The position numbers and the translations under genes were made by a program. A DNA stretch of 30,030 bases, taken from the IMG/VR virus record IMGVR_UViG_3300008108_000922, positions 1 to 30,030 of that record, one strand, 5' to 3'. Under the pieces are notes generated by a model. The model did not search any database and had not been told where the DNA came from. It saw nothing but the letters and a program-made list of their open reading frames with translations. Origin of the DNA: a virus. Below, one piece after another: positions 2,679 to 27,675 of this stretch; the first letter of the stretch is position 1, and every line of letters begins with the position of its first letter.

Positions 2679-2704
2679 GGAATAAATAGCCTATCCGTAT
2701 GGTT
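2679..2704 (+). promoter_or_regulatory. SigR-like promoter of the phosphatase gene
   Basis: GGGAAT, exactly 18 bp, then GTTATAG. It is the only plus-strand member of the GGAAT-N18-GTT set in this window and precedes the only plus-strand gene, which argues against chance. A second, vegetative-type promoter lies about 40 bp further on. Confidence 0.6.
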
Positions 2705-2744
2705 ATAGATAGAGTAGTGATAGAAAGTAATCTATCTAAACCAC

Positions 2745-2772
2745 TTGACAAATAGTTATCTGTTTGTAATAA
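2745..2772 (+). promoter_or_regulatory. Sigma70-type promoter of the phosphatase gene
   Basis: TTGACA, 16 bp, TAATAA (or 17 bp and AATAAT). The start codon of the phosphatase follows with GAAAGGAGTGATTACAA immediately before the ATG. Confidence 0.6.
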
Positions 2773-2813
2773 TAGTGGTATCACTTATAAACAAACGAAA
2801 GGAGTGATTACAA

Positions 2814-3359
2814 ATGACACTACCAACAAGAAATAATCTGTCTGACTTTGAGCGACCACGGCACAATGATTTGCCTAAATCTCTATGGACTGAAACTTTG
2901 CCTGACCTATGGCAAGGTGGAACACTTGATGCTTATGGCAATGAAGACTGGTTTGAGCAAGTAGATGTTATCGGCAAAGAGATTAGCAAGAAACACTTTG
3001 ATTGCGTCTATACACTTTACGCAAGTGCTGACCCAGTTGATTGGTTCGTCAAGGAACTTAGGTTCGGCTTCTATGATAGTTCGCTAACTGACTTTGACCC
3101 AGTAGAAAATCTATTGGACATAGTTAAGATGGCTCATAAAGATTGGAAGTCTGGTAAGAGAGTTCTTATTAGATGTCAGGCTGGACTAAATCGTAGCGGT
3201 TTAGTTATGGCTTTGGTTCTAATTCGTGACGGCTATGAGCCAGCAGATGCTATCAAACTGATGAGAGAGAAGCGTTCATCTTGGGTTCTATGTAATAAGA
3301 ACTTTGAGAGATACTTACTCGGCTTAGATGAAAAGCAGTTAGCAATCTGGAGAAACTAA
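2814..3359 (+). CDS. Dual-specificity/tyrosine phosphatase-like protein (CX5R)
   Basis: 181 residues with the phosphatase P-loop RCQAGLNRSG (nucleophile Cys121, Arg127) at the end of a hydrophobic strand VLIR, as in cysteine-based dual-specificity phosphatases, and acidic candidates for the general acid in the loop DSSLTDFD (88-95). It would remove phosphate from protein Tyr/Ser/Thr or from another phosphoester; the substrate is unknown. Strong SD (AAAGGAG, 8 nt). It is the only rightward gene, inserted as its own unit between the portal block and terminase with two promoters and its own terminator, the layout of a phage moron or of a gene expressed when the rest is silent. Confidence 0.8.
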   Translation: MTLPTRNNLSDFERPRHNDLPKSLWTETLPDLWQGGTLDAYGNEDWFEQVDVIGKEISKKHFDCVYTLYASADPVDWFVKELRFGFYDSSLTDFDPVENLLDIVKMAHKDWKSGKRVLIRCQAGLNRSGLVMALVLIRDGYEPADAIKLMREKRSSWVLCNKNFERYLLGLDEKQLAIWRN

Positions 3360-3364
3360 GATTT

Positions 3365-3393
3365 ATCCCCTGTCAATGTGGCAGGGGATTTTT
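3365..3393 (+). terminator. Rho-independent terminator of the phosphatase gene
   Basis: ATCCCCTG, 9-nt loop, CAGGGGAT, then TTTT. It lies just after the phosphatase stop and just before the convergent terminase stop, so it may serve both strands. Confidence 0.8.
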
Positions 3394-3394
3394 C

Positions 3395-4786
3395 TTATCT
3401 AACTCTAAAGAAACTACTTCTAGCATCTGGTATTTTACGACCAGCCATAGACTTAGCAGTTAGTTTGCCACCTACAAACCCTGCTGGTGGCTTTATCATA
3501 AGAGCGGTAAGAGCGTGAACTAAAGCATCTACTCTGTCTGGCGACCTACCCTCACCCGGAACCCAACTTAGCATCTGACTCTCTAAGTCAGGTAAGTATC
3601 CAATGTGATGGACACGCCCTTGCTCATAGCCAAGCACGACTGGTTCAGCACGAAGTTGCTTTCCGTATTTGCTATGGACTTCTAATACTTTGATACTAGG
3701 GTCAATGGCGTTGATAGCATTACGAACTAATGCTCCACCTTGATTGACTTCAGCAATAACTGGACAGCCCCACTTGCGAGCCATAGCAACTACTCGGTTA
3801 GCCCACACTTCAGGCGAACCTAACACGCTAGCATCTTCTAATACCCAAGCCTGACGCTTATACAAATCTCTCTCACCAGTTGATGCGACTACAACTATTC
3901 CGCATTCATCTCTAGGGTTCTCAGCAACGCTAGGGTCAACACCAATACAACGCAGTGGTGTGTTCAGTGGTAGAGCGTTCTGTCTATGTACCTCAATCAA
4001 ATCATCATTCCACAAAGCACCCTCAACGCTATCCAACATCTCACCATAAAGTTCCTGTTGAGCAAGACGAGTTCCAGCATAGACACCCGTAATAGCATCA
4101 AGATAAGCAACGCTTAGGTTTCCAGAGTTATCAAGAGTAGAACCACGAGTGATAACTACACGACCAGTGTTCTTACTTTCTTCTATCAACTTGTAGAGCA
4201 ATGGAACACGCTTAGGTGTAGTAGTAACCATAATCTGTGGATTACGACCAAGACGAGTTCCTACACGCAAGTTATCAAAAGCAGTCATACCTGCTGCGTC
4301 AGGTGTCTGTCGCCAAGCAGCAATCTCATCTCCCCAAGCGTGAGTAAATTGTGGACCACGCAAAGAGTCAGGCTCATCGGCAGTAAAGCAAGTAGCAGTA
4401 TTTCCATTAGGCCAAGTTAGTCTTCGCTTTGATGGTTCATACAATGGTCTTTCGCTAGGTGGAGATACATTCATAATTCCACTCTCACCCTCAACGATTA
4501 CATCTCGCACATCTGCTGCTGTTCTCGCAACCAAAGCAAAACGCCTTTGACCCGTGTTAGTGTATTTGGCTTGCTCTCTCACCCACTCGGCTGCGGCACG
4601 GGTCTTACCAGCACCACGACCACCAAGATACATCCAGACTGCCCAATCACCTACGGGAGCGTGCTGTTCAGGTCTGCCCCAGACTGACCAATCCCACATA
4701 AGAGTATCGGCATCCATGCCAGATAAGACGAGTGCTCTCTCTGCATCAGGCAGAAGAGCGATTTGTTCCATTATAGATTTGGCCAT
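3395..4786 (-). CDS. terL: Terminase large subunit
   Basis: 463 residues. Walker A is GGRGAGKT (near residue 57), the ATPase acidic pair is in HAWGDEIAAW, and the C-terminal RNase-H-like nuclease begins with CIGVDPSVAE and later has a conserved VPGEGRSPDRVDALVHALTAL segment. This is the motor and nuclease that packages concatemeric DNA into proheads. The ATG chosen has no SD but lies 6 nt after a TACAAT -10 box (4793-4798), which would give a leaderless mRNA; the same geometry is seen at the next upstream gene. A GTG at 4804 would lie inside the promoter. The length fits actinophage terminases. Confidence 0.93.
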   Translation of the reverse strand: MAKSIMEQIALLPDAERALVLSGMDADTLMWDWSVWGRPEQHAPVGDWAVWMYLGGRGAGKTRAAAEWVREQAKYTNTGQRRFALVARTAADVRDVIVEGESGIMNVSPPSERPLYEPSKRRLTWPNGNTATCFTADEPDSLRGPQFTHAWGDEIAAWRQTPDAAGMTAFDNLRVGTRLGRNPQIMVTTTPKRVPLLYKLIEESKNTGRVVITRGSTLDNSGNLSVAYLDAITGVYAGTRLAQQELYGEMLDSVEGALWNDDLIEVHRQNALPLNTPLRCIGVDPSVAENPRDECGIVVVASTGERDLYKRQAWVLEDASVLGSPEVWANRVVAMARKWGCPVIAEVNQGGALVRNAINAIDPSIKVLEVHSKYGKQLRAEPVVLGYEQGRVHHIGYLPDLESQMLSWVPGEGRSPDRVDALVHALTALMIKPPAGFVGGKLTAKSMAGRKIPDARSSFFRVR

Positions 4787-4792
4787 GAATCT

Positions 4793-4798
4793 ATTGTA
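4793..4798 (-). promoter_or_regulatory. -10 box for leaderless terL
   Basis: TACAAT followed 6 nt later by the terL ATG, with no SD between. No good -35 is visible. Confidence 0.35.
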
Positions 4799-4849
4799 AT
4801 GCACAGAAAAAATGGCAACCCAGGCAAACTTGCCCAGTGGATGGAGATG

Positions 4850-5119: not shown

Positions 5120-5141
5120 ACAAGTATTGTATCGCAGTAAA

Positions 5142-5174
5142 GTGAAAACCCCTGACATTTGTCAAGGGTTTCAC
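5142..5174 (-). terminator. Hairpin after the HTH gene
   Basis: GTGAAA-CCC arms pair with GGGG-TTTTCAC around a TTGACAAATGTCA core that is itself an inverted repeat. It sits between the HTH gene and the next gene; it may terminate or, given the TTGACA inside it, carry a -35. Confidence 0.5.
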
Positions 5175-5196
5175 TATTGGCGAACAAGTTTCGGTA

Positions 5197-5739
5197 TTAC
5201 TCAATTACCCTAATCGTGAGCGAGCAATATGGATTACTCTGCCAGTTGTATCTATTAGTTAGAAAAACTGACCCGTATTGCCAGTTAGTATAAGTAGTTG
5301 CTGTTCCAGTGGCTAATCCAACAGAACCATCTCCACAGCCAAGAAGACTTGTACCATTTCCTATGTATTCTAGGATTTCAGGCGATGGCTCAACAAACTC
5401 TCTTTCCACTTTTGCTGGATACATCGGTGGAGTTGGGTTAGTGAAGTCAGGTGGCATTGGTCCATCAATTGGTGTTTCACAAATCTGACGAACACGCTCT
5501 CTACTGAGTTCAACTGAGCGAGAGATAGCACTTAGTGTCCATCCATTGTTACTCAATGAACGAATTATGTTATCTCTATCTGCTGGCTTAGCGGAATTGA
5601 GCAATGAAGTGATGTAAAACGGCAACTTTTGATTTGCTTTCTTTATCTTTGTCATTTCTTCTTTTATCTTTCTATGTAATGACCCGTATGGGTCTGTGGT
5701 TTCTATTGAAATTGTATCTGTAATACAAATGTTATTCAA
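5197..5739 (-). CDS. HTH protein, candidate small terminase subunit
   Basis: 180 residues. An HTH resembling sigma-70 region 4 lies at about residues 60-87: LSNNGWTLSAISRSVELSRERVRQI. Similar W-T-L-x-x-I-x-x-x-x-x-x-S-R-E-R-V-R-Q helices occur in actinophage proteins encoded just before terL. The C-terminal 80 residues are Gly/Thr/Tyr-rich and look beta-structured. By position and HTH it may recognise the packaging site, but this is inference. The start is uncertain: a TTG gives 180 residues without SD, an ATG at 5655 preceded by AAAGAAGAA gives 152. Confidence 0.6.
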   Translation of the reverse strand: MNNICITDTISIETTDPYGSLHRKIKEEMTKIKKANQKLPFYITSLLNSAKPADRDNIIRSLSNNGWTLSAISRSVELSRERVRQICETPIDGPMPPDFTNPTPPMYPAKVEREFVEPSPEILEYIGNGTSLLGCGDGSVGLATGTATTYTNWQYGSVFLTNRYNWQSNPYCSLTIRVIE

Positions 5740-6193: not shown

Positions 6194-7162
6194 CTACTCT
6201 GATTTTTGAGTTCCTTCGTAGATGTCTTTGACGACATTAGCCCATATTCTCGGTGTATGTGTGAGTGGTTGATACCCACCAGCACCACCAATCAATACAC
6301 GCCCATCGGCAAACTTGTTTGCTAGTTCAGCAATTACTTTTGAAGCATAAGCGTAGCCATCGTAGGTATATTTCAACCCCCAATGCTCTTCCTCATGTCC
6401 ATCAGCACCAGTAGCAAGCAAGATTACATCTGGCTTATACTCGGCAACTTTCTTAGCAATCTCATCAATTGCCCATTTGAACGCTTGGTCGCCCTCGCCT
6501 TGCTGTAAGCAGTAGTTATACCAGTGTTGCTCGTCATTTTGATAGATGTAATTGCCATCTACTCCAGCCTCACGAAGCCATGTGTCTGAGTGAGTTGGGT
6601 AGATTCCGTGTCCGTGGATACTGAAAGTTGGAATATCGGTATCCGCAAGTAGGTTCTGCACTCCATCACCAGCATTCACATCCCAGTCGATGTAAACAAC
6701 TTTGAGCCCATTCTGCACGAAATTTTTGGCAGCCCAGGCAAAATCGTTGAACACGCAGAAGCCCTCGCTCCATCCGTATTGAGCGTGGTGCTTTGCTCCC
6801 TGTGGATTGAAGCCAACTTGAGTTTCACCAGCGAGTATCTTCTCAACCAGTCTTACTGTTCCAGAAAACATCTGACCAGCGGTATGCCCCATCTCAGGCT
6901 TGAAGCCAAGCCAGTCATAAGACCTACCCTCATCAATAACCTCTGAAACATAGTTAGGGTCGTGGATAGATTCAATCTTCTCTCTGTCCTCATCTTTGAA
7001 TTCAGGTTCAATGATTTCAACATTGTCCGCACCCACTTCATCTACCAAGTAATCGGTAGCAATCTTGGCACGGATAGGCTTGGTTGGATGTGAGCCATCT
7101 CCCGAACCTAAATTCCAGTTCAGGTAGTCGTCGCTATATGCGATAGTTAGTTTCTTTGTCAT
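6194..7162 (-). CDS. Histone deacetylase/AcuC-fold hydrolase with altered metal ligands
   Basis: 322 residues across the whole HDAC-like fold. Conserved marks: the His pair at 125-126 (QGAKHHAQ), the GFCVFND strand (135-140), the third-ligand motif TGADGHEEE (Asp254) and GGAGGYQ with the catalytic Tyr297. The expected D-x-H-H-G metal/charge-relay motif reads DVNAGDG (161-167), so the zinc-ligand His and its neighbour are Asn163 and Ala164. Family members remove acetyl or other acyl groups from lysine or polyamines; here the activity or metal may differ. Strong SD (AAAGGAG) and a TTGACA promoter precede it, so it is an independent unit. Confidence 0.8.
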   Translation of the reverse strand: MTKKLTIAYSDDYLNWNLGSGDGSHPTKPIRAKIATDYLVDEVGADNVEIIEPEFKDEDREKIESIHDPNYVSEVIDEGRSYDWLGFKPEMGHTAGQMFSGTVRLVEKILAGETQVGFNPQGAKHHAQYGWSEGFCVFNDFAWAAKNFVQNGLKVVYIDWDVNAGDGVQNLLADTDIPTFSIHGHGIYPTHSDTWLREAGVDGNYIYQNDEQHWYNYCLQQGEGDQAFKWAIDEIAKKVAEYKPDVILLATGADGHEEEHWGLKYTYDGYAYASKVIAELANKFADGRVLIGGAGGYQPLTHTPRIWANVVKDIYEGTQKSE

Positions 7163-7526: not shown

Positions 7527-7528
7527 TT

Positions 7529-7708
7529 CTAGTGTCCTTTCGTCTTTAGGTGTTGTATCTTTACAACAAGATAATCATAGGCATATCCTATGACATTTGT
7601 CAAATACCTTTTTCGGTGTTTCTTGCGTGGAAACTTAGTTGATTGCCACTGAGCCCAGTGAGCAACTTTAAATGCTATTCCACTAATCCAGTGTAGTAGG
7701 CGGTACAT
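7529..7708 (-). CDS. Small basic protein
   Basis: 59 residues beginning MYRLLHWISGIAF, with a Trp-rich amphipathic N-terminus and a basic middle (KFPRKKHRKRYL). Short proteins of this style (an amphipathic N-terminus followed by Arg/Lys) are common in actinophages, function unknown. SD GGGAG at 6 nt. It overlaps the upstream gene by 26 bases. A TTGACA-TATGAT promoter for the next gene lies inside its 3' half. Confidence 0.55.
   Translation of the reverse strand: MYRLLHWISGIAFKVAHWAQWQSTKFPRKKHRKRYLTNVIGYAYDYLVVKIQHLKTKGH
7574..7603 (-). promoter_or_regulatory. Sigma70-type promoter inside the basic-protein gene
   Basis: TTGACA, 18 bp, TATGAT, reading into the 78-residue gene. Confidence 0.45.
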
Positions 7709-8874: not shown

Positions 8875-9699
8875 TTATCTTGTAGTCCAATTTACATCTG
8901 GATAATTACGCTTGTTCTTTTTGATTTGAGCATCGGCTTTGGCTTGGATTAGAATTCTCTGCTCCTCAACCGAAGTTCCTCGCTTGTGTGCCAAAGCAAC
9001 CAAGATGGTGTCAAGTGACTCTTGGCTACGCTCAATCTCTTCAGGTGTGCGACCCATGCTTTGAATACCAACTAGCATATTGACGGCAATTGACTGAGCA
9101 GTACGCTCTGCCTTGACCTCAGTCTTGTATCTGCTAAATGCGTATTCAAGCACTACTAGCGGTGTGCCATCTGGATTCCAGATACCAGTCTTCAAACGCT
9201 TAGCCTCAATCTCAGCCTTACGAACCTGACGAAGACGGCGTGCCTCTACTACCTCTGGGTCTTCCAACTCGCATTGTCTGAGGAAGTAAGCAGATGGGGC
9301 GTGAGCATAGCAAACAGTACAGGCTTTCTCGCCAGCAAGAAACGCAATCTCAAGTTCATCTCGACCTGACATCTCGGTAAGCCAAACATACTGAGTAGTA
9401 GGAAAGCAGGTTCCGCAATTACGACTCTTGTGAATGTGCCCATTGCTATTCCGCACAAGGTAGGCACGGGACCATCCTGTGTAGAGTGCCTTGAGGGCTG
9501 CCAGTTTTTCCTTGTCGACGGCAAGTTCTTTTTCGAGAGCATCTCGTTTGATTTCTTTTTGCTCCACTTCTTTGCCCATCCAAGAGTGCTTCTTGTTGTA
9601 CTCGATTGACTGATTCAGTGAGTGGATGCTTATGTTCTTTGACTCAATAGACGCAAGTAGTTCTGCGATTTGTGTGTCAATAATAATCGGTGTAGTCAT
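8875..9699 (-). CDS. Coiled-coil protein with CxxC zinc site (common actinophage family)
   Basis: 274 residues. Residues 1-70 are predicted coiled coil (heptad-like Leu/Ile, many Lys/Glu). The middle has the signature NGHIHKSRNCGTC (about 85-98) and later KACTVCYAHAP (about 124-134), together a four-Cys zinc site with nearby His. A helical, charged C-terminal third follows. Proteins with this N-G-H-I-H-x-S-x-x-C-x-T-C pattern are frequent in actinophages; role unknown. Its ATG overlaps the TAA of the upstream membrane gene (TAATG) and has SD AGGAG. Confidence 0.7.
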   Translation of the reverse strand: MTTPIIIDTQIAELLASIESKNISIHSLNQSIEYNKKHSWMGKEVEQKEIKRDALEKELAVDKEKLAALKALYTGWSRAYLVRNSNGHIHKSRNCGTCFPTTQYVWLTEMSGRDELEIAFLAGEKACTVCYAHAPSAYFLRQCELEDPEVVEARRLRQVRKAEIEAKRLKTGIWNPDGTPLVVLEYAFSRYKTEVKAERTAQSIAVNMLVGIQSMGRTPEEIERSQESLDTILVALAHKRGTSVEEQRILIQAKADAQIKKNKRNYPDVNWTTR

Positions 9700-9908
9700 T
9701 ATCTTCTGCTCCTGACATTTCTACGAAGAGCCAGTGGTCTGTTCTGCCAAGCAAAGATGAGCCCAGCAAAACCCCCAACTACAAGAGTGATTGATGATAG
9801 GAGTATGGCTAACTTATCGGCACTGATTGACAGTGTGCCAGCCTTGATACTGAGCCCCAAAGCAAGTAGCCCCAGTCCCAGTGGTATTGAAACAATCATT
9901 GTTTTCAT
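9699..9908 (-). CDS. Small two-helix membrane protein
   Basis: 69 residues: two hydrophobic segments (about 5-22 and 34-55) and a strongly basic tail NRPLALRRNVRSRR, expected in the cytoplasm. SD GAAAGGA. Coupled to the coiled-coil gene and driven by a SigR-like promoter 27 bases upstream. Role unknown; a holin-like function is only a possibility. Confidence 0.65.
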   Translation of the reverse strand: MKTMIVSIPLGLGLLALGLSIKAGTLSISADKLAILLSSITLVVGGFAGLIFAWQNRPLALRRNVRSRR

Positions 9909-9934: not shown

Positions 9935-9960
9935 AACTAAAACTTATAGGAATTTATTCC
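9935..9960 (-). promoter_or_regulatory. SigR-like promoter (membrane protein / coiled-coil operon)
   Basis: GGGAAT, 18 bp, GTTATTGA. A CTTGACA lies just upstream. No ClgR-type palindrome upstream. Confidence 0.55.
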
Positions 9961-12222: not shown

Positions 12223-12251
12223 ATTGTAGGCGGCAGGTTTTTCCATGTCAA
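12223..12251 (-). promoter_or_regulatory. Sigma70 promoter of paralogue 2
   Basis: TTGACA, 17 bp, TACAAT. The spacer contains TGGAAAAA of the CCATG-type element. Confidence 0.75.
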
Positions 12252-13416: not shown

Positions 13417-13619
13417 TAGTCCCACACTTCCAATACTTCTACATCGGTATCAACTAACTTGTGATTAGATAAGTCAAAACCATCTTCTTCTTTTATGCGT
13501 TCTATCGCCAAGTCAATAATTTCTTCTTGGTCAGTTGTCGGTGTTGTAACACTCGTAATGTAACTCGTAGAGTTTGTGGTCAGAGTGACTGTATAAGTTG
13601 CTGATGAATAGTTATACAT
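13416..13619 (-). CDS. Hypothetical small protein
   Basis: 67 residues with a Thr/Ser-rich beta N-terminus (YTVTLTTNSTSY) and an acidic helical second half (EIIDLAIERIKEED). Overlaps the upstream gene by 8 bases. Not recognised. Confidence 0.55.
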   Translation of the reverse strand: MYNYSSATYTVTLTTNSTSYITSVTTPTTDQEEIIDLAIERIKEEDGFDLSNHKLVDTDVEVLEVWD

Positions 13620-13827
13620 TATCCACCACTTCCGTAATCTCTCTCCAACTATCTCCCGAACCTTCGATAAGACTTAGGTTAGAGCCATTGTCCCATTGCA
13701 CTACAATTGTTCGGTATCCCCAAGGGTCAATGTATTCCATCACCTTAGTTCCTAATGCACCCTTAGTTAGATTTGTATAAGGGTCGGAAGTAGAAATCAG
13801 TTCTACTCTTATTTTTGTTTTTTCCAT
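13612..13827 (-). CDS. DUF4314-like small protein
   Basis: 71 residues. The pattern RVELISTSDPYTNLTKGALGT, then VQWDNGSNLSLIEG, resembles DUF4314, short SH3-like beta proteins found in phages and plasmids; function unknown. First gene of the 12.6-13.8 kb operon, behind a SigR-like promoter. Confidence 0.6.
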   Translation of the reverse strand: MEKTKIRVELISTSDPYTNLTKGALGTKVMEYIDPWGYRTIVVQWDNGSNLSLIEGSGDSWREITEVVDNV

Positions 13828-13859: not shown

Positions 13860-13885
13860 AACTAAAACGGCAGACATTTTATTCC
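13860..13885 (-). promoter_or_regulatory. SigR-like promoter of the 12.6-13.8 kb operon
   Basis: GGGAAT, 18 bp containing TGTCTG, then GTTATAGT. Its -35 overlaps the stop codon of the upstream membrane-protein gene. No palindrome upstream. Confidence 0.7.
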
Positions 13886-14681: not shown

Positions 14682-14710
14682 ATTATAAACATTGCCCCAG
14701 CGGATGTCAA
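14682..14710 (-). promoter_or_regulatory. Consensus sigma70 promoter
   Basis: TTGACA, 17 bp, TATAAT: a perfect vegetative promoter, serving the 70-residue zinc protein. Confidence 0.85.
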
Positions 14711-14834: not shown

Positions 14835-15068
14835 TTAGTTTGCCTCGTCTTTGTGAGTAAAGAAAGCGTTTGAGCATTCAACGCACATACCAAGTTCTTC
14901 GGCGTGTGTATCTGCTTCTATCTTCTCCCCGCACTTATCGCAAGGCAATAGTCCACCATTGATTAGTTGCTCCAAAGCGTGCAACGCTTCATCGGCGTTA
15001 GTTGTCCCATTGTGATAATCGGTGTAGATAGCCTTTACTGCTTGCTCTTCTACTGCTGTTAGTTCCAT
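14835..15068 (-). CDS. Zinc-ribbon-like protein
   Basis: 77 residues: helical N-terminal half, then LPCDKCGEKI and MCVECSNAFF, a four-Cys ribbon resembling DksA/TraR-type zinc fingers in spacing (CxxC-x17-CxxC). SD GAGGAGGTGGG. Single-gene unit behind a SigR-like promoter. Confidence 0.65.
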   Translation of the reverse strand: MELTAVEEQAVKAIYTDYHNGTTNADEALHALEQLINGGLLPCDKCGEKIEADTHAEELGMCVECSNAFFTHKDEAN

Positions 15069-15100: not shown

Positions 15101-15126
15101 AACCGAACCCCCTGACAAATTATTCC
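15101..15126 (-). promoter_or_regulatory. SigR-like promoter of the 77-residue zinc protein
   Basis: GGGAAT, 18 bp containing TGTCAG, GTTATTAT. The promoter lies inside the upstream gene's terminator hairpin. Confidence 0.7.
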
Positions 15127-15145: not shown

Positions 15146-15415
15146 TTAGATAAACAACTGCTGGTCGACCATCTCCATCACAAAATCCAAATCCCGGCCC
15201 TCTAAGTCTTCTTCTATGTAAGTTGAGAAGTCGTAAGTTCCATCTTGGTTTGAGGTAAAGATGTTGACGATAGTTGTGTCGTGTTGCCAAGTTGCTAGGT
15301 CGCCATCGGTGTTCGCACCAATAATCGCACCCCAATACTTAACAAGGTCACTCGGCGTAAGTTTAGTTTGTGGAATACCACCAACAACTTGTTGCCCCGC
15401 GTCATTTAGTTCCAT
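15146..15415 (-). CDS. Hypothetical protein
   Basis: 89 residues beginning MELNDAGQQVVGG; mixed fold, acidic C-terminal half (YIEEDLEGRDLDFVMEMV). Not recognised. SD AAAGGTGGTG sets the start four codons inside the longest frame. Confidence 0.6.
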   Translation of the reverse strand: MELNDAGQQVVGGIPQTKLTPSDLVKYWGAIIGANTDGDLATWQHDTTIVNIFTSNQDGTYDFSTYIEEDLEGRDLDFVMEMVDQQLFI

Positions 15416-15443: not shown

Positions 15444-15469
15444 AACCCCCGCCCCCGACAAAAACTTCC
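15444..15469 (-). promoter_or_regulatory. SigR-like promoter of the 89-residue gene
   Basis: GGGAAG, 18 bp containing TGTCGG, GTTATTAT. A GTTATCAAATCGTTAT element begins 14 bp upstream of the -35. Confidence 0.65.
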
Positions 15470-15717: not shown

Positions 15718-15891
15718 TTACTTTGCTATTGTGTCGCACCCGGGGTCGCCACAACCGCATTCATCACTACAAACATTGTAGGTTTCGCAGTCGTGGGTTT
15801 CGTAAATCTTTACTTCGGTGCTTGGGTCAAATAGGTTTCCGCAACCCCCGCACTCAATAAAGGCTTCGCCCTTGCTGTTTAGTATCGGCAT
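15718..15891 (-). CDS. Cys-rich small protein
   Basis: 57 residues with seven Cys: ECGGCGN, then NVCSDECGCGDPGC. One or two zinc sites are likely. SD AAAGGAAG sets the ATG; two extra in-frame codons earlier lack an SD. Confidence 0.65.
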   Translation of the reverse strand: MPILNSKGEAFIECGGCGNLFDPSTEVKIYETHDCETYNVCSDECGCGDPGCDTIAK

Positions 15892-15923: not shown

Positions 15924-15949
15924 AACGGATAATCCCCCGTATTTATTCC
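15924..15949 (-). promoter_or_regulatory. SigR-like promoter of the Cys-rich protein
   Basis: GGAAT, 18 bp, GTTTATGT. A GTTATCAAATCGTTAT element begins 4 bp upstream. A second chance-level match (GGAAT-N18-GTT at 15986-16011) lies behind it. Confidence 0.55.
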
Positions 15950-17530: not shown

Positions 17531-17988
17531 TAGACCCTACCCGCACAAACCGGGCCGATACCCTGAGCAACTGATACAGGGTCGGTAAGGAACTTACCGC
17601 ACCATACGCAGAAACCGTATTCAACGCCAAAGGCTTTCGCCTCTTCAATAGTCATACGCATTTCGGCAGTTAGACCACGCATAGCGCCCTGCTCGTAGAT
17701 GAACTTGCGTTCAGCAACATCAAGGACTTTTGCGTAAAGGTTGCCTGTCTCTCGACTTGCTTGAACCTTGTAGATAACGCCATTGGCGTTGCGATACATA
17801 CCTTCAGCAACAGGGGCGTTGTTGCGTGGGGCGGAGATTAGCGAACCAATAAGGTCGCTGGCTTGCTTAGAAGTGAGAGTGGCAAAATCAACAACAAGGT
17901 CGTTTGCCCTTTCGCTAATAAGGGTTTTGAGAAAAGCAACCTGCTTTTCAGAGGCCGGGCGAGCCGGGGTGGGTGATGTGATAGTCAT
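17530..17988 (-). CDS. DUF6011-like protein with C-terminal Cys motif
   Basis: 152 residues. The N-terminal half (ASEKQVAFLKTLISERAN, then LTSKQASDLIGSLI) and the C-terminal FCVWCGKFLTDPVSVAQGIG with PVCAGRV match a common actinophage type in which a CxxC-GxPLTDP...GIGPVC metal site ends the protein (DUF6011). Function unknown; perhaps nucleic-acid binding. Start fixed by AAAGGAGG; a 50-codon in-frame extension runs through the promoter and is not used. Confidence 0.72.
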   Translation of the reverse strand: MTITSPTPARPASEKQVAFLKTLISERANDLVVDFATLTSKQASDLIGSLISAPRNNAPVAEGMYRNANGVIYKVQASRETGNLYAKVLDVAERKFIYEQGAMRGLTAEMRMTIEEAKAFGVEYGFCVWCGKFLTDPVSVAQGIGPVCAGRV

Positions 17989-18015: not shown

Positions 18016-18041
18016 AACAGGTCGCACTGACTTTTTATTCC
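18016..18041 (-). promoter_or_regulatory. SigR-like promoter of the DUF6011-like gene
   Basis: GGGAAT, 18 bp containing AGTCAG, GTTATAGT. The GTTACCAAATCGTTAT element begins 23 bp upstream of the -35. Confidence 0.7.
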
Positions 18042-18599: not shown

Positions 18600-18974
18600 C
18601 TAGATAGCCTTGAAAGTGATGTTGCCTGTCCCAACAGGCTCATCATGAGAATAGCGAACCAATACCAACTCGCCATTGGCATAAGTAAATACCAACTTGA
18701 AGTCGCCATTGAGCGAGAACCTCTTGATTAAGTCATCAGCGTTGAACGCCATAACAAAATCGCCAGATACTCTACGCCAAGATACTCCCCTGTATTCAAC
18801 CTGAACCTCTGTCTCATCTGTCCAGCCTTTATCAGCCTGAACCTCTTTAACAAGTAAGTCCAAGTCATACTTGGAATCATCCCAACAACCAAAACACTCT
18901 TCAATGAAGTTGTCATCTTCATCAACGCAAGTGCAGTCGCTGTTAAGCGTGACTTTTGTCTCTAAGTTATCCAT
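18600..18974 (-). CDS. Hypothetical acidic protein
   Basis: 124 residues; N-terminal Cys in CTCVDED and ECFGCWDD, then beta-strand-rich C-terminus (FKLVFTYANGELVLVRY). Not recognised. SD GGAGGTG. First gene of its unit behind a SigR-like promoter. Confidence 0.6.
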   Translation of the reverse strand: MDNLETKVTLNSDCTCVDEDDNFIEECFGCWDDSKYDLDLLVKEVQADKGWTDETEVQVEYRGVSWRRVSGDFVMAFNADDLIKRFSLNGDFKLVFTYANGELVLVRYSHDEPVGTGNITFKAI

Positions 18975-18999: not shown

Positions 19000-19025
19000 A
19001 ACCCAATACATTACTTTTTTATTCC
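19000..19025 (-). promoter_or_regulatory. SigR-like promoter of the 124-residue gene
   Basis: GGGAAT, 18 bp, GTTATTAT. A ClgR-type palindrome begins 18 bp upstream. Confidence 0.7.
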
Positions 19026-19440: not shown

Positions 19441-19593
19441 TTAGTAAGCGTTCACATACATAGCCAGCGAGTTATCTAGGCTGTGCTTAGATGAGTTGAA
19501 TAGTTCAACAAAGGCGTTAGCCTCATCTAGCGTAGCGAAGAAGTGATTACCCACATTGACATTGCCAATGTGTATCTCTACTTTATGGTTCAT
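19441..19593 (-). CDS. 50-residue hypothetical protein
   Basis: Begins MNHKVEIHIGNVNVGNHFF; beta strands then a helix (DEANAFVELFNSS), a pattern like small phage dsRBD-sized folds but not assignable. SD GGAGGTG. First gene of its unit behind a SigR-like promoter. Confidence 0.6.
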   Translation of the reverse strand: MNHKVEIHIGNVNVGNHFFATLDEANAFVELFNSSKHSLDNSLAMYVNAY

Positions 19594-19616: not shown

Positions 19617-19642
19617 AACTCCAACCCCAGACAAAATCTTCC
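19617..19642 (-). promoter_or_regulatory. SigR-like promoter of the 50-residue gene
   Basis: GGGAAG, 18 bp containing TGTCTG, GTTATTGT. A ClgR-type palindrome begins 18 bp upstream. Confidence 0.7.
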
Positions 19643-20324: not shown

Positions 20325-20648
20325 TTAGTTTATCGCTCTGATGAACTCGTAAGAGCCGTCAACTGCGACTGCGGTGTAGACCTCTGGAAACTCCGCTTGA
20401 AGTTTCTTAAGGTCTGGTCTGTCCATAATTACCTGCATCATTTTGAACGCCTTTTGTCCGCTAATGGTAGCGAACTCTGCGTCACCGAGAGCAAGTCTTA
20501 AGACTTCCTCAGCCTCTTCTTTGGCTTTGTCGGCTAACTTCTTAGCCTCCAGAGCCTCGCTGAACTTGTCCAATGCAACTCGGACATTGTGGTCAAAACC
20601 AACTTCTACGGTCTTGCCCTTGATTATGTTTGTTAGTGGCTTTTTCAT
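20325..20648 (-). CDS. Hypothetical helical protein
   Basis: 107 residues. N-terminal helix with Ala/Lys/Glu heptads (DKFSEALEAKKLADKAKE), then FATISGQKAFKMMQV and a segment DRPDLKKLQAEFPEVYTAV that resembles the C-terminal region of some phage exonuclease/recombination proteins. Function not assigned. SD AAGGAG. Single-gene unit with a SigR-like promoter. Confidence 0.6.
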   Translation of the reverse strand: MKKPLTNIIKGKTVEVGFDHNVRVALDKFSEALEAKKLADKAKEEAEEVLRLALGDAEFATISGQKAFKMMQVIMDRPDLKKLQAEFPEVYTAVAVDGSYEFIRAIN

Positions 20649-20705: not shown

Positions 20706-20731
20706 AACCTACAACACTGACATTTTATTCC
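20706..20731 (-). promoter_or_regulatory. SigR-like promoter of the 107-residue gene
   Basis: GGAAT, 18 bp containing TGTCAG, GTTATAGT. A ClgR-type palindrome begins 18 bp upstream. Confidence 0.75.
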
Positions 20732-20923: not shown

Positions 20924-21202
20924 TTAGAAGGCTACTAGATTTTCCATGCCCCGGTTTTCTTTTTCTCTTTCGTCTGCACACATTAGTGATACTGAGCATT
21001 CTGAAAGTATTAAGTAAAGCGGAACATCTAAACCATCTGCGATACTCTGCAAGACTGTTGAAGAAACTTCTTTCGTTCCTCGTTCAATCTCAGACAGATA
21101 CCCAAGCGAAGTATGCGACCTTGCGCTGAGTTGTCTTAGGGTTATCTCCCTATCGACTCGCATTTTTCTAATGGTATTTCCGAGTGCTATTGCTAGGTTC
21201 AT
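20924..21202 (-). CDS. ClgR-like XRE-family transcriptional regulator
   Basis: 92 residues. The region from about 9 to 68 follows actinobacterial ClgR closely: IRKMRVDREITLRQLSARS, then SLGYLSEIERGTKEVSS with the recognition helix, then VLQSIADGLDVPL. ClgR activates clp and lon protease genes in Streptomyces, Corynebacterium and Mycobacterium by binding GTTCGC-N5-GCG operators. Five palindromes of that form lie upstream of promoters in this window, so this protein is the likely phage-encoded regulator of them; direct binding is inferred. The C-terminal 20 residues are not ClgR-like and read through a CCATGC element. SD is weak (AAGAGACAA). Confidence 0.78.
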   Translation of the reverse strand: MNLAIALGNTIRKMRVDREITLRQLSARSHTSLGYLSEIERGTKEVSSTVLQSIADGLDVPLYLILSECSVSLMCADEREKENRGMENLVAF

Positions 21203-21559: not shown

Positions 21560-21589
21560 CCACTCACCCTACAAGTATAGGGCAAGTGG
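21560..21589 (-). terminator. Hairpin after the frameshifted gene
   Basis: CCACTTGCCCTA pairs with TAGGGTGAGTGG with mismatches around ATACTTG. No long T run. Confidence 0.5.
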
Positions 21590-21606
21590 CTTTCGCTTGT
21601 CAATGG

Positions 21607-22066: not shown

Positions 22067-22096
22067 ATTATAGAGTGTGGGGCTGACACTTGGCAA
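22067..22096 (-). promoter_or_regulatory. Sigma70-type promoter of the frameshifted gene
   Basis: TTGCCA, 18 bp, TATAAT. The spacer is the upstream gene's terminator arm. Confidence 0.6.
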
Positions 22097-22113: not shown

Positions 22114-22419
22114 CTACTTTATGTCGTAGGACTCGCAGATTTCGGCAACTGCGTCATTGAGAGCGTTGACGAGTAATGAAATCTCGTTGTCGTTTAGGTG
22201 CTCAACCATTTCTGCCAAAACAGTTGACTGCCAAACAATCCCAGAAACTTCCCTGAGTTGCTTTTTGTAATCTGCGAAAGCCTCGTTCATTCCACACGCA
22301 GAACAGATTTCTGTTTTGTTATCCTTGCGTGAGATAGCACCGGGGTATGCTCCGGGAGTTTCGTTGTTCGGAATCTGCCCATCACAAGTTGGGCAAGGGT
22401 GGGTTCTGTTGTCAGTCAT
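22114..22419 (-). CDS. Zinc-ribbon protein
   Basis: 101 residues. Cys pairs HPCPTCDGQI and EICSACGMNEAF in the first third, then a helical, acidic C-terminus. N-terminal sequence is of a common phage type (CPxC...CxxCG). ATG overlaps the upstream TAA (TAATG). Confidence 0.68.
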   Translation of the reverse strand: MTDNRTHPCPTCDGQIPNNETPGAYPGAISRKDNKTEICSACGMNEAFADYKKQLREVSGIVWQSTVLAEMVEHLNDNEISLLVNALNDAVAEICESYDIK

Positions 22420-22748
22420 TATTTCACCTCGTTGCTTATGAAGTTGTATGCGTGGTTTGCGAAAGTCTCGGAGTCGCTCTTAAAGAACAATGTTTCTTCG
22501 TTCTTTAAGTCTTCTTCGATACAGGCAGATAGAACTGCTACGCGAGCAAGAGCAAGAGAAAGAGTTGCGTAAAACTCGTTCCACTCATTTACTACATAGT
22601 CAGTCCATTGAAGACGATAAATAGCCTCGCCCTCAGCGTTAGCGAAAGAGTCAATGGTGACTCCTGATTTACCAGCCAAGTCAAACTTGATTGGGGTTGT
22701 TAGCAACTGAGCCTTTGCTGACTCAGTGTGGATTCCTAGTCTTTCCAC
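22419..22748 (-). CDS. Hypothetical protein
   Basis: 109 residues; beta-rich first part (FDLAGKSGVTIDSFANAEG), helical second part (ATLSLALARVAVLSACIEE). Not recognised. Start is GTG with SD GAAAGGAG. First gene of a two-gene unit behind a SigR-like promoter. Confidence 0.6.
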   Translation of the reverse strand: MERLGIHTESAKAQLLTTPIKFDLAGKSGVTIDSFANAEGEAIYRLQWTDYVVNEWNEFYATLSLALARVAVLSACIEEDLKNEETLFFKSDSETFANHAYNFISNEVK

Positions 22749-22785: not shown

Positions 22786-22811
22786 AACTATGATTATTCA
22801 GGATTTATTCC
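22786..22811 (-). promoter_or_regulatory. SigR-like promoter of the GTG-start gene
   Basis: GGGAAT, 18 bp, GTTATAGT. No palindrome upstream. Confidence 0.7.
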
Positions 22812-22829: not shown

Positions 22830-23114
22830 TTAACTATTTTTCAAGACTTTTTCTGTGTAGCCTTTGTCAATCTTTTCGTAGAACTTATCCCAAGCAAAAG
22901 CAACTGCCTCCTGCTCTGTCGCAAAAATCTTTTCACTGCCCATCCAAGAGTTAGGTGCTTCTTCTCTGCCCCAAGACATAAAGACGCACCAACGCCCTGT
23001 GGGGTTTAACTGCCTTATGTAAATCATGTAGGCTTTTCTAGCCCCATACTGCCCACGCTGTCCCTGTGAACGCTTTACTAGGGTTACCTTTGGAAAAAGA
23101 GTTGAGTATTGCAT
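22830..23114 (-). CDS. Hypothetical basic protein
   Basis: 94 residues beginning MQYSTLFPKVTLVKRSQG; a strand-rich middle (RWCVFMSWGREEAPN) and an AFAWDKFYEKIDKG helix. Looks like a small RNA/DNA-associated fold, not assigned. SD GGAG; a 35-codon in-frame extension runs through the promoter and the ClgR-type site. Confidence 0.6.
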   Translation of the reverse strand: MQYSTLFPKVTLVKRSQGQRGQYGARKAYMIYIRQLNPTGRWCVFMSWGREEAPNSWMGSEKIFATEQEAVAFAWDKFYEKIDKGYTEKVLKNS

Positions 23115-23155: not shown

Positions 23156-23181
23156 AACACACTACGCTGACATTTTCTTCC
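23156..23181 (-). promoter_or_regulatory. SigR-like promoter of the 94-residue gene
   Basis: GGGAAG, 18 bp containing TGTCAG, GTTATCTT. A perfect ClgR-type palindrome begins 19 bp upstream. Confidence 0.7.
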
Positions 23182-23887: not shown

Positions 23888-25783
23888 TTAGACTCGTGAG
23901 CCGATTGCCGAGACCACTTTGGCCGCGGTCTGTCCGATTACCTGCGCTGCTTTGACTGGCGACTCGGTGCTGTTGAGCGATACAATCTCGCCACTTGTTC
24001 CGTCTAGGTATGACTTAGCGTAGCCAGTCTTACCGTCAAATGTCAGCCACAAGATAGCCACGCCCTTACGGTCAGCCTCTTTGAGCAACTGCTTGGCGTA
24101 TGCTTGCTGGTCGCTACGGTATCTACCGTCAGAAACAACTACGAGCAATCTCGCACCGTCTCCACTGGTTAGACCCAAGCCACTGTCAAGAGCCTTGAAC
24201 GCTTTGGCAAACTCTTCGGTTGAGTCGGTGGCAGTGAAAGTCTTCACTTTGTCCAACTTCTGTCCCGGCTTAAGAGTGGCAAATACATTCTGACCGTAAT
24301 AGACCATTGCACACTTGCCCTGAATCCTACGAACTGCCTCTGACATAATCCACGCAGTAATGCCCATTGGTTGCATTGCTGGTTTCATAGAACCAGAAAT
24401 GTCCACCATAACGCCAACCTTTAATGTTGGGTCTTCTGTTTGCTTACGCTGTGTGCGTCTCCAAGTTTCAATCGGAGATACAACGCCCTTAGCCTTAAGA
24501 GCCTCACGCTGAACAACTGCACGAGAACGCAAGCGACCTGGTGGAACAACGCTACCAGCACGAACTTGTGAACGCTCACGATACTTTGCTTTACGCAAAG
24601 CGTTAGCAACTTTGTTGGCTGCTGCCAGTTCTTCTGGCTTAGGTGAGCGAGAGTCTTGAAGAACAGAGTTGGTTCTAATTCCAGTTATGTGAGAACCAGC
24701 AGAGAAAACTTCGTCAGCAATCTTGTCACGATGTTTCTTTTCTTCGTGTGCTTTGTCTCTTTGCTCGACTTCTTCTTTGCGTTCATCCATGTCAATCTCG
24801 TCATTGATGTCGTCTTGGTTGGCAATCTGAACAATGTCTTTCATTTCTTCAACTGCGTCTTTGACTTGCTCAATGAACTTCTTGAACTGCTTGACTTGCT
24901 CGTCAGTAGGTTCGTTGCTTGGTGTAGGTGTGCCATCCTCGCTCGGCTTTGATGTGCCCGGTTCTGGTGTGCCACTCTCTCCACCCGGATACTCGCAACC
25001 ACCTTTTGGTGTTTCAGTTGGTTTCTCGCCAACTTCATCTTTGCGTGCATCAAGAACTTCAATGAAACGATTTGTAAGTTCGTAAAGTGGTAATGCGTTT
25101 TCGTGGTCGCTGTGTGCTTGGAACTCTTTCCAGATTTCACGCAACTGGTCAATGGTCTCTTTACCAAGAACCTCGTGCAGGATTTCCATAACAACTTCTG
25201 GAACATCATTTGCATCCAAAACGCCAGCGTCTACTCTCGCAAGAGTGAGCAGAGCAGTAAAGGCAGCAGCGTCTACTTTTGAAACATTTTTAACTTGCTC
25301 GTCAAGTTCTGCCATAACGATTTCCATTGCACAAGCACGAAGTAGCAATCTGTTCTCTGGAACAAATACGCAACCCCAATACTCAATGCGACCCTCTTCC
25401 ATAGCATGCAAGAAACGCAAGTGTCTTGCATCTAAATCTTTTGCTGCTTGCTCTAATGACCAGCGAGAAATCCTAGCGTGGAGTGCCTCGTGGAAAATAG
25501 CACCAGTAGCAGTTGGGTGCTTAAGTTGATTTTTTCGGTGTGTAAGTTCGCCAACTTCTTTTGGCTCAACATTGCCAAACGCTTTGCTGATACAAACTTC
25601 AATCTCTGCTGTGGCAGGATTGAAACACGCAGGTGCACCAATGGTGGTGTCCTCAACTAGACCTACAACTAGGTCTTGGCGTAGCGACCATTTGTTGACA
25701 ATCTTGCCAACGCTGGCATTGACTTTCAACCAGTCAGGGTGGGTGCGACCAATGGTTTTGGTGCTTACTTTGTAGTGGCTCAT
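23888..25783 (-). CDS. Metallopeptidase-like / VWA-domain protein (CobT-type, MoxR partner)
   Basis: 631 residues. N-terminal half: HEALH (98-102) with a downstream EEGRIE (129-134) is a gluzincin-like zinc site as in DUF2201-type metallopeptidase domains. Middle (about 255-360): Pro/Gly/Glu-rich linker and a highly charged coiled region. C-terminal half: VWA domain with the MIDAS motif DISGS (461-465) and VVVSDGRYRSD. This N-peptidase/VWA layout occurs beside MoxR ATPases, where the VWA protein works with the AAA+ ring in remodelling or assembling a target; the target is unknown. CobT-like names refer to the VWA part only. SD AAAGGAG. The MoxR gene lies directly upstream. Confidence 0.85.
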   Translation of the reverse strand: MSHYKVSTKTIGRTHPDWLKVNASVGKIVNKWSLRQDLVVGLVEDTTIGAPACFNPATAEIEVCISKAFGNVEPKEVGELTHRKNQLKHPTATGAIFHEALHARISRWSLEQAAKDLDARHLRFLHAMEEGRIEYWGCVFVPENRLLLRACAMEIVMAELDEQVKNVSKVDAAAFTALLTLARVDAGVLDANDVPEVVMEILHEVLGKETIDQLREIWKEFQAHSDHENALPLYELTNRFIEVLDARKDEVGEKPTETPKGGCEYPGGESGTPEPGTSKPSEDGTPTPSNEPTDEQVKQFKKFIEQVKDAVEEMKDIVQIANQDDINDEIDMDERKEEVEQRDKAHEEKKHRDKIADEVFSAGSHITGIRTNSVLQDSRSPKPEELAAANKVANALRKAKYRERSQVRAGSVVPPGRLRSRAVVQREALKAKGVVSPIETWRRTQRKQTEDPTLKVGVMVDISGSMKPAMQPMGITAWIMSEAVRRIQGKCAMVYYGQNVFATLKPGQKLDKVKTFTATDSTEEFAKAFKALDSGLGLTSGDGARLLVVVSDGRYRSDQQAYAKQLLKEADRKGVAILWLTFDGKTGYAKSYLDGTSGEIVSLNSTESPVKAAQVIGQTAAKVVSAIGSRV

Positions 25784-25824
25784 TTCTGAACTCCTTTTCT
25801 TGTTACTACTACTTTACTGTATAA

Positions 25825-25850
25825 AACTAAAAAATGTCAAGATTTATTCC
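25825..25850 (-). promoter_or_regulatory. SigR-like promoter of the VWA gene
   Basis: GGGAAT, 18 bp containing TTGACA, GTTTTATA. The embedded TTGACA could also act as a vegetative -35. Confidence 0.5.
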
Positions 25851-25864
25851 CAGATTTTTAGGGT

Positions 25865-25905
25865 GTGTGTGGGGCGGAAATCTAAGGGTAAGCCACCCCA
25901 CACAC
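25865..25905 (-). terminator. Hairpin between MoxR and VWA genes
   Basis: GTGTGTGGGG, 21-nt loop, CCCCACACAC. Together with the next hairpin it separates the two genes into different units. Confidence 0.65.
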
Positions 25906-25906
25906 G

Positions 25907-25934
25907 AGCCAAAATCGGAGACCTAGATTTTGGC
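25907..25934 (-). terminator. Hairpin at the MoxR stop
   Basis: AGCCAAAAT, 10-nt loop, ATTTTGGCT, overlapping the stop codon of the MoxR gene. Confidence 0.55.
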
Positions 25935-26957
25935 TGGCTTGAACTCTGTGCCATAGACACGAGTAAATACATCAGCGACAATCGCTCTGTCTTCAACTGG
26001 TGCTTGGGCAATCAAGTTAGAGACTGCCCAGTCTGCACCAAGTTCAGCAGAGATGTCTCTGTAATCTAGCAACTCACGCATTTGTGGTGACCAGTTGACT
26101 TCATCAGACTGTTGCTTTTTGGCTAGGTTCTGTGCACAAGTTACTGCTTGTGCTGGAACTCCTAACTTACGAGCAAGTGTCCAGTCAGTAGTCATTTCTG
26201 CTTGAATACCAAAGCGAGAGAGTAGAGCCTCAGAAAGATTTACTCCGGGAGCGTTAGGGTTAGTAGCAGCCACCACGAAGAAACCATCCTTAGCCTTAAC
26301 GATTGCTCGTTCAGGGTTGGCAGTTACTTTGAGTTCTCTACGACCATCCATAAGACCATAGACGACTGAAAGAACTTTGGGGTCAATCAAACCAATCTCG
26401 TCAATCAGTAGGACTTTGCCCTCTTCTGCTGCTCGCACTAGCGGCCCATCCACCCACTCAAAGCCACCAGCGATTGTTTGAACATAGCCACCAACTAGGT
26501 CGCCAACTTCGGTGTCGCCAGTTCCAAGAACTGTGATTAGGTCGTCACCAAAAGCACCTTCAAACATTGCTGTCTTTCCAGTGCCCGGTGCACCATAAAG
26601 CAAGATTGACTTTCCAGTCGCACTTGCTCGCTGGCTACGAGCAACTTCAACATCTGTGTGTTGCCCCCACTTACGAGTGAAGTATTTCTGTCCATTAGGG
26701 CGAACATAAAAACTTTCACCAGCAAGAGCGTCGACTTGCGTCACTTGAACTCCTGCTTTCTCAGTGTTGGCGTTATCACGATTGCGAATAACTGCTTTAC
26801 CTGCTGTCTCGTCATAACCTAAGTTTAGGTCAGATGCGACAACTGGATTTAGAACTTGCCCAACAACTGCGCTGAGCATGACTGGTAGGTTCTCGTGAAT
26901 CCTACGCTGGTTTTCAACCCACTCTTGTGAGGTTGGATTTGTGTTTGGTGTAGTCAT
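25923..26957 (-). CDS. MoxR-family AAA+ ATPase
   Basis: 344 residues. Walker A GAPGTGKT (122-129), Walker B VLLIDEIGL (182-190), sensor-1 VVAATNP, and an arginine-rich LSRFGI segment; all match MoxR-type AAA+ proteins, which form rings and act with VWA proteins. The N-terminal 100 residues are a phage-type extension. SD AAGGAG. It is followed by the VWA gene and preceded by the 184-residue gene, so the three probably act together. Confidence 0.9.
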   Translation of the reverse strand: MTTPNTNPTSQEWVENQRRIHENLPVMLSAVVGQVLNPVVASDLNLGYDETAGKAVIRNRDNANTEKAGVQVTQVDALAGESFYVRPNGQKYFTRKWGQHTDVEVARSQRASATGKSILLYGAPGTGKTAMFEGAFGDDLITVLGTGDTEVGDLVGGYVQTIAGGFEWVDGPLVRAAEEGKVLLIDEIGLIDPKVLSVVYGLMDGRRELKVTANPERAIVKAKDGFFVVAATNPNAPGVNLSEALLSRFGIQAEMTTDWTLARKLGVPAQAVTCAQNLAKKQQSDEVNWSPQMRELLDYRDISAELGADWAVSNLIAQAPVEDRAIVADVFTRVYGTEFKPAKI

Positions 26958-26971
26958 TTTGGTTGGTCTCC

Positions 26972-27526
26972 TTATCTTGCTACGCCGGGAGTTACTGGTG
27001 TCAGGGTGACAACAGTTGGTGTTGCAGGTGCTACTGGTGCAGGTGCATCAAATAACGCCTCTGGGAAATTAAACGCTTTACGAGAGCGTTCAATCCTACG
27101 AACAAGTTCGTTTGAAGTCTTACCAGATTTGATAAGTTCAACATCCTTGTAAGTTGCCTCAACTGTGATTGGTTGCTTGAACAACTTCCAATCTCTGTGA
27201 ATAAGTGAGTCAATGGTTTTTGAAACTAATCTGTGTAGGTGTGTAGCAGAAATGTGCTTTACACGATTTAGGTCAGTCTCTTGCTGGAACTCGCCACTCG
27301 CTTGACGAGGTAGAACGAAGTCCCCAGTTGTTGGAACTGATGAAAAGTTCCAGTTCTTGCGTGGATGCCAAGACGAAAGTCGTCTCTCCATTACACAAGC
27401 CGGGATTACCCCACCTTCAGCGTTAGTCGCTGGTGGCGTGATAACCATTTGGTAGGTGTAGTTGTCTTTGCGGAACTCTAAATAGAGTGCCTTGCCAACT
27501 ACTGTTTTTTCTGTGTTTGCGTTCAT
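26972..27526 (-). CDS. Hypothetical third member of the MoxR-VWA block
   Basis: 184 residues, beta-rich N-terminal half (ALYLEFRKDNYTYQMVITPP), a helical basic middle and a Pro/Val/Thr-rich tail (PATPTVVTLTPVTPG) of low complexity. Not recognised. 14 bases upstream of the MoxR gene, so co-transcribed. SD AAGGAGA. It has two tandem promoters. Confidence 0.6.
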   Translation of the reverse strand: MNANTEKTVVGKALYLEFRKDNYTYQMVITPPATNAEGGVIPACVMERRLSSWHPRKNWNFSSVPTTGDFVLPRQASGEFQQETDLNRVKHISATHLHRLVSKTIDSLIHRDWKLFKQPITVEATYKDVELIKSGKTSNELVRRIERSRKAFNFPEALFDAPAPVAPATPTVVTLTPVTPGVAR

Positions 27527-27569
27527 TTGGTCTCTCCTTATCTAAAACGCTTTTTTGTATCTACTATCA

Positions 27570-27597
27570 ACAATAGTGATTTTCACCACTTTGTCAA
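27570..27597 (-). promoter_or_regulatory. Sigma70-type promoter of the MoxR block
   Basis: TTGACA, 16 bp, TATTGT, 44 nt before the start codon. It lies between the gene and the SigR-like promoter, so the block has both types. Confidence 0.6.
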
Positions 27598-27649
27598 GTC
27601 CATTTCCAAAACTTTTTTTGGGAGTGTTTTTCGTTGATACACAGACTAT

Positions 27650-27675
27650 AACACCAAGTGTTCGTCATTTATTCC
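27650..27675 (-). promoter_or_regulatory. SigR-like promoter of the MoxR block
   Basis: GGAAT, 18 bp, GTTATAGT. A ClgR-type palindrome begins 19 bp upstream. Confidence 0.7.

Follow-up and report, generated by a model that had tools for sequence, protein, structure and literature searches.

Two short boxes, GGAA(T/G) and GTT, held exactly 18 bp apart, recur 14 times in a 30,030-nt stretch of the virus record IMGVR_UViG_3300008108_000922 (the window, meaning this whole stretch), and the question is which transcription factor reads them. The sites are spread over one block of ~26 kb that consists of small genes, mostly of unassigned function. We propose that they are probably the promoters of one phage regulon, read by a host sigma factor of the SigR/SigH type, that is, an extracytoplasmic function (ECF) sigma factor that responds to thiol-oxidative and protein-damage stress.

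The phage and the position of the sites

The window belongs to a 37.5-kb virus record and is 99.8–100% identical, in pieces, to a contig of 135,336 bases (G001), which appears complete because its two ends adjoin in the gene order of Actinomycetia phage DSL-LC01 (OQ999401). The window, which encodes a terminase, part of a portal protein and an endolysin, is part of a freshwater actinobacteriophage of ~135 kb. By its terminase, the nearest annotated phage is DSL-LC01, which was obtained from a lake (PMC10611076); related terminases are found in DSL-LC01 and in Microbacterium and Gordonia relatives (77%, 63% and 49% identity). A second related contig, G003, has 135,069 bases. The predicted SigR/SigH-type promoters in the window are as follows.

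2679..2704, plus strand: GGAAT-N18-GTT, before a dual-specificity-phosphatase-like gene (2814-3359), on the strand opposite to the block
9935..9960, minus strand: before gene 9699-9908 (69 aa)
13860..13885, minus strand: before gene 13612-13827 (DUF4314)
15101..15126, minus strand: before gene 14835-15068 (zinc-ribbon-like, below cut-off); site kept in G003
15444..15469, minus strand: with GGAAG, upstream of an 89-aa gene with its start at 15415
15924..15949, minus strand: with GTTT, upstream of a 57-aa gene with its start at 15891; it scores lowest of the 14 in the matrix
18016..18041, minus strand: upstream of a 152-aa gene with its start at 17988 (DUF6011 / phrog_636); site kept in G003
19000..19025, minus strand: before gene 18600-18974 (124 aa); site kept in G003
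19617..19642, minus strand: with GGAAG, upstream of a 50-aa gene with its start at 19593
20706..20731, minus strand: before gene 20325-20648 (107 aa)
22786..22811, minus strand: before gene 22419-22748 (GTG start)
23156..23181, minus strand: with GGAAG, upstream of a 94-aa gene with its start at 23114 (WGR domain slightly under cut-off); site kept in G003
25825..25850, minus strand: with GTTT, upstream of the 631-aa gene 23888-25783 (VWA/CoxE-like, below cut-off); site kept in G003
27650..27675, minus strand: before gene 26972-27526, followed by an AAA ATPase gene (25923-26957); site kept in G003

The two boxes are paired at 18 bp

Every left end given for the 14 sites by an earlier, sequence-only reading was matched exactly. 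In the window, the pattern GGAAK-N18-GTT (K, T or G) occurred 18 times, 4 times on the plus and 14 times on the minus strand, compared with a mean of 2.11 and a largest count of 5 in 100 shuffled controls. A 17-bp spacing gave no match on either strand, a 19-bp spacing gave two (one per strand), and any other spacing between 10 and 26 bp gave at most four matches per strand. The 18-bp spacing is specific for the GGAAK/GTT pairing in the window. Four of the 18 matches (6630, 15986, 20246 and 20298) were excluded, here as in that reading; they have GTTC, GTTG or GTTT and lack AA after GGAA(T/G), and GTTT is also present in two of the retained sites (15924 and 25825). All 14 sites are followed, 23–123 nt after GTT, by a Shine-Dalgarno (SD) sequence and a start codon, a range slightly different from the 20–110 bases claimed before.

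The wider frame said to enclose most sites, GGGAATAAA-TGTCAG-GTTATAGT, holds as a consensus but not as the usual exact sequence. Exact copies of GGGAATAAA and GTTATAGT were present in 7 and 5 of the 14 sites, and GGAATAA and GTTAT in 11 and 12, respectively. The claimed conservation of TGTCAG in the spacer was weaker than stated: because TGTCAG is exact in only 3/14 sites and TGTC is found in 6/14, it is a tendency and no fixed part of the element, and its use as a further binding site is only weakly suggested. The fifth base of the upstream (−35) box is T in 11 sites, G in three and never C, the search pattern itself requiring T or G; the sixth, which the pattern left free, is A in 13/14. Columns 34–37, counted from the first G, are mostly T-R-T-R.

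Two other descriptions of the core were rejected. A palindrome, TGACATTTT-GGAAT-AAAATGTCA, is present piecemeal and inconsistently over the 14 sites, and when the core was taken as a sigma-70 promoter with an overlapping TTGTCA-N17-TANTAT, most sites had, by eye, no usable −10 box at that position.

Selection for GTT was avoided by collecting GGGAATAA wherever it occurred in eight phage sequences, which gave 38 distinct occurrences. GTT followed at N18 in 30 of them, at N17 in two, and at N16 or N19 in none. Among the 32 sites that bore GTT, the next base, which is the −11 column of a SigA promoter, was A in 24 (12/14 in the window), and 22 had GTTAT. A lesser GTT peak at hexamer-N23 is probably the second GTTA of GTTATAGTTA.

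Conservation of the sites in related phages

G001 and G003 share 106 reciprocal best gene pairs. A site was present upstream of both genes in six pairs, in G001 only in three, in G003 only in three and in neither in 94 (Fisher p 3.8e-6). In most of the shared sites the spacers differ and the two boxes are unchanged. GGAAK-N18-GTTA was found 12 times in the endolysin-terminase block of G001 and twice elsewhere, and 11 times in the block of G003 and nowhere else. A position matrix built from the 14 sites gave, above a threshold of 13 bits, 16 matches in G001 (0.8 in shuffled sequence), 15 in G003, 14 in G004 (34 kb), 7 in G007 (36 kb) and none in DSL-LC01. Among the unrestricted matrix matches in relatives, GGAAC occurred once (in G005).

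The element is confined to part of the related phages. Strict GGAAT-N18-GTTAT was present in 7 of 17 related records and absent from the other 10, and in five cultured Microbacterium/Gordonia phages GGAAK-N18-GTTA was near control level (0–3 matches vs. 0–2 for the reversed control). The strict pattern GGGAATAA-N16-GTTATAGT was found in 26 stretches of a viral contig database; in the records behind 12 of these stretches, GGAAT-N18-GTTA occurred 7 and 3 times in two records where the sites are those of the window itself, three times in G298 (control 1), twice in G303 (control 0) and once in each of the other eight.

DSL-LC01 likewise carries a small-gene block from endolysin to terminase in which a promoter-like motif is repeated, but the motif is TCTAA-N8-TAAT within GATTCTAAAGATGTTATAATAGAATC, and GGAAT-N18-GTTAT is absent. 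Its 19 copies (23589-40582), 18 of them inside the block, are one case of a more general observation, namely that related phages (DSL-LC01, L036, L055, L066 and L016) each have their own multi-copy promoter-like motif. The motifs among the last four are ATCTA-N8-ATAA (13 copies), TTGTC-N16-ATAG (10), GTCAG-N11-ACAA (12) and TGTAC-N18-TATA (7). Across clades the upstream element changes and a TATAAT-like box stays.

The sites fit promoters of the SigR/SigH type

The promoter passages of the cited papers give GGAAYR-N17-18-GTT as the consensus of Mycobacterium tuberculosis SigH (PMC4803200) and GGAAT-N18-19-GTT for Corynebacterium glutamicum SigH, which tolerates other fifth bases, whereas SigE requires C (PMC10012870). 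In the structure of the SigH open complex, GGAAYA occupies −34 to −29 and GTT occupies −11 to −9, and a spacer of 17 bp is optimal (PMC6411747). The phage sites, GGAA(T/G)(A/T)-N17-GTT in that notation, have the same geometry as promoters of Streptomyces SigR and of M. tuberculosis and C. glutamicum SigH, and the likeness claimed by the sequence-only reading extends to the −35 box, the spacer and the −10 box. At the predicted start columns (34–35 from the first G), T and a purine are common, which fits SigH geometry. Unlike the known regulons, the phage genome holds many copies before small genes, and its boxes are extended, the −35 box to GGGAATAA and the −10 box mostly to GTTAT.

By this likeness, sigma region 4 would contact positions −34 to −29, which hold GGAAT(A), and region 2 positions −11 to −9, which hold GTT. 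Transcription would start 9–10 nt downstream of GTT and soon reach the SD sequence of a small gene. The block would be switched on when SigR is released from its anti-sigma factor RsrA, by stress or by infection; SigR might be freed by stress at infection or by an act of the phage on the SigR-RsrA pair.

SigR-RsrA pairs in candidate hosts

Candidate hosts were found with a ClgR-like helix-turn-helix (HTH) protein of the phage, encoded in the window as follows.

20924..21202, minus strand: ClgR-like HTH gene; of the NCBIfam models ClgR matches best, at a score below its cut-off, and clgR is linked to SigR/SigH in actinobacteria

From the best 80 of 544 matches to this protein, 19 actinobacterial genomes, mostly small, were chosen by title as likely aquatic. 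A SigH_actino match was present in 18 of the 19, and among genomes no larger than 1.5 Mb (17 searched) each had 0–2 matches. Near the start of sigR, 15 of 18 sigR-type loci carry GGAAT-N17-19-GTT (N18 in 12, N17 in one and N19 in two). An open reading frame (ORF) with a ZAS motif, hence anti-sigma-like, adjoins sigR in 17/18 loci. The closest solved protein for two SigR-type proteins was M. tuberculosis SigH (E 1.5e-39 and 1.5e-10). The search for SigR-RsrA suggested by the sequence-only reading thus found sigR-rsrA-type pairs in most genomes, these being candidate hosts only. In the order of G033, SigH matched in 55 of 60 genomes (1.2–5 Mb), 47 of them above cut-off, so that the match is not host-specific.

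The phage form of the element is also found in bacteria. Exact GGAATAA-N16-GTTA gave 21 matches in 12 of 17 bacterial genomes, compared with 3 for the reversed pattern. It lies before sigR in eight genomes, before ssrA, the gene for transfer-messenger RNA (tmRNA), in two (L232 and L228), and before clgR and dnaK in one each. The other nine matches, several of which may be due to chance, include sites at a 94-aa protein in two genomes (GGAATAAATGTCAG...) and at a 494-aa membrane-protein-like gene. The network passage of PMC3489674 names clgR and dnaK as SigH targets in C. glutamicum. We infer that the host would be a small actinobacterium with a SigR-RsrA pair.

The case for a host stress sigma factor is made by the element, its spacer, its position before genes, its recurrence in relatives, the sigR-rsrA pairs of the candidate hosts with the same promoter before sigR and a search in which no sigma factor was found in the phage (see below). 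Several results weigh against it. (i) On the phage side, many sites read GTTATAGT or GTTATTAT, which resemble a SigA −10 box with an extended −10 G, and the 34-kb relative G005 has nearly lost the motif (2 matrix matches). (ii) Among the candidate hosts, the SigH_actino match was above the curated cut-off in 3 of the 19 genomes, below it in 15 and absent from one; three of the 18 sigR-type loci have no upstream site; the RsrA model matched all three candidates tested, each below cut-off; and the low-GC genomes G025 and G028 differ in a helix that is TVMSRLHRG-like in most other candidates. (iii) Searches for the host singled out no genome. A single degenerate pattern for the tag of the phage tmRNA, covering not all Ser/Arg codons, gave no match in genome contigs. 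The full phage tmRNA matched 131 of 199 genomes of one family, the listed matches covering only about the last 30 nt, the conserved 3′ end. Tetranucleotide r with G001, computed for 14 genomes on one or two stretches apiece, was 0.34–0.55 for 11 genomes (45–61% GC) and 0.08–0.17 for three above 70% GC, with no clear winner. (iv) The passage of PMC3489674 on the C. glutamicum rshA mutant reports no detected change for clgR, despite its SigH promoter, and a weak change, below threshold, for dnaK.

Which factor reads the sites

Host SigA could instead read TATAGT/TATTAT as a −10 box with an extended −10 G, with a phage activator bound to GGGAATAAA(TGTCAG) as a substitute for the −35 box. T4 MotA is such an activator, substituting for the −35 box at SigA-type promoters, and the T4 middle promoters (MotA/AsiA) likewise make up a class of phage genes with a −10 box and a conserved non-SigA element near −30. 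A TATA(A/G)T-like −10 is present in many of the sites. An activator is also possible because more distant relatives, outside the clade, have different repeated elements, several of them upstream of good TATAAT boxes; these multi-copy elements lie in comparable regions, a pattern expected of an activator that drifts, and this too counts against a stress sigma factor. We nevertheless consider this explanation unlikely. GTT is kept while the bases after it vary in the unselected sites, so that, unlike at T4 middle promoters, GTT is steadier than the rest of the −10 box. The −35 box, spacer and −10 box all fit SigH, and the same motif precedes sigR, ssrA, clgR and dnaK in bacteria, another difference from the T4 middle promoters. 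Several HTH genes are present in the phage, none linked to the motif, and no MotA-like gene or other activator was identified, although no systematic search for an activator was made. The window also contains its own SigA-type promoter-like sites, five on the gene strand, with counterparts in G003 by eye, and three more on the other strand. The five are as follows.

22067..22096, minus strand: SigA-type promoter-like, TTGCCA-N18-TATAAT
21574..21603, minus strand: SigA-type promoter-like, TTGACA-N18-TATACT
14682..14710, minus strand: SigA-type promoter-like, TTGACA-N17-TATAAT
12223..12251, minus strand: SigA-type promoter-like, TTGACA-N17-TACAAT
7574..7603, minus strand: SigA-type promoter-like, TTGACA-N18-TATGAT

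Because the window holds these SigA-type sites on the gene strand, the GGAAT sites form a second, separate promoter class. A few sites in relatives join GGAAT-N18-GTT with a SigA-type promoter (e.g., G003 75361/75371).

Phages often bring their own specificity factors, and the phage itself might encode a very divergent sigma factor, or a protein that appropriates RNA polymerase, whose specificity is SigR-like. The passage of PMC10202952 on two isolated Nanopelagicales phages reports a sigma-70 gene in both, and gene 5197-5739 of the window has a weak Sigma70_r4-like stretch, below cut-off. Sigma70_r2 was found in none of the 17 phage records at E 0.001, compared with control matches in 10 of 14 genomes, and Sigma70 r4_2 gave only sub-cut-off matches, in 4/17 records. 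A hidden Markov model of 14 bacterial SigR-type proteins, run with no filters on six phage sequences, gave nothing significant, the best E being 4.2, and the ORFs called in G001 and G003 contained no HxxxCxxC motif. G001 also looks complete, and a phage-borne factor appears improbable.

Least probable, and hardly to be expected, is that the repeats are operators, cassette boundaries or SigR-titrating decoys and no promoters at all: some sites do have TTGACA upstream and TGTCA downstream of GGAAT, a loose inverted repeat, and GGAATAA-N16-GTTA has nine copies in one phage genome vs. 0–4 in each of the 17 bacterial genomes, but the fixed orientation before an SD sequence and start codon in 14/14 cases, the promoter geometry and the asymmetric core oppose it. 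Titration of SigR could be a side effect of promoters read by SigR.

Phage genes possibly related to the SigR response

Besides the ClgR-like gene, tmRNA genes were found in the phage sequences L091 (8972-9311, tag AESRSAFALVA) and L098 (12691-13036, tag AESRSAFALAA), with no SigR-type site in the 200 bases preceding the phage tmRNA gene, and a WhiB-family gene in L090 (9878-10345). In the passage of PMC4921905 on Streptomyces, WblC/WhiB7 raises sigR. We tentatively raise the possibility, which we would not bet on, that the phage has joined the host SigR regulon: with more than a dozen genes under SigR-type promoters, its own tmRNA and ClgR-like copies and a WhiB protein that possibly raises host sigR as WblC/WhiB7 does, it might make and sense its own sigma supply while soaking up the stress response.

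Other elements in the window

A second repeated element, (GCAT)GGAAAAAnnnnnACCC, is present in the window at 2538, 18209 and 23308 (plus strand) and at 27813 and 28606 (minus strand), and also in G005, L014 and L019. It often occurs in facing pairs, TTTTTCCATGC...GCATGGAAAAA, and in four cases lies 127–168 bases upstream of a SigR-type promoter; GGAAAAn(6-7)ACCCC is a related form in other relatives. These elements are possibly cassette borders. The window also contains a histone-deacetylase/AcuC-like gene (6194-7162).

Meaning for the phage and its hosts

As a rule, phages first rely on the housekeeping sigma factor and later supply specificity factors of their own. Among the titles listed from the open-licence PMC literature, none reported that SigR/SigH or a different ECF sigma factor of the host reads phage promoters. 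A parallel is offered by phages of Alphaproteobacteria, which reportedly have CtrA-controlled promoters (PMC9437464). In both cases the phage would couple its genes to a host regulator that answers to physiological signals of its own; CtrA, however, is a response-regulator transcription factor, whereas a stress-type sigma factor is implied here. Editable freshwater actinobacteria exist, as the passage of PMC11577799 on Rhodoluna lacicola and Aurantimicrobium photophilum indicates.

If the sites are read by a host SigR/SigH-type factor, then (i) a set of small phage genes would be expected to act under stress; (ii) the SigR-type promoter class may offer a way to predict hosts from promoter type; and (iii) phage expression would follow the redox status of, and the protein damage in, common freshwater bacteria.

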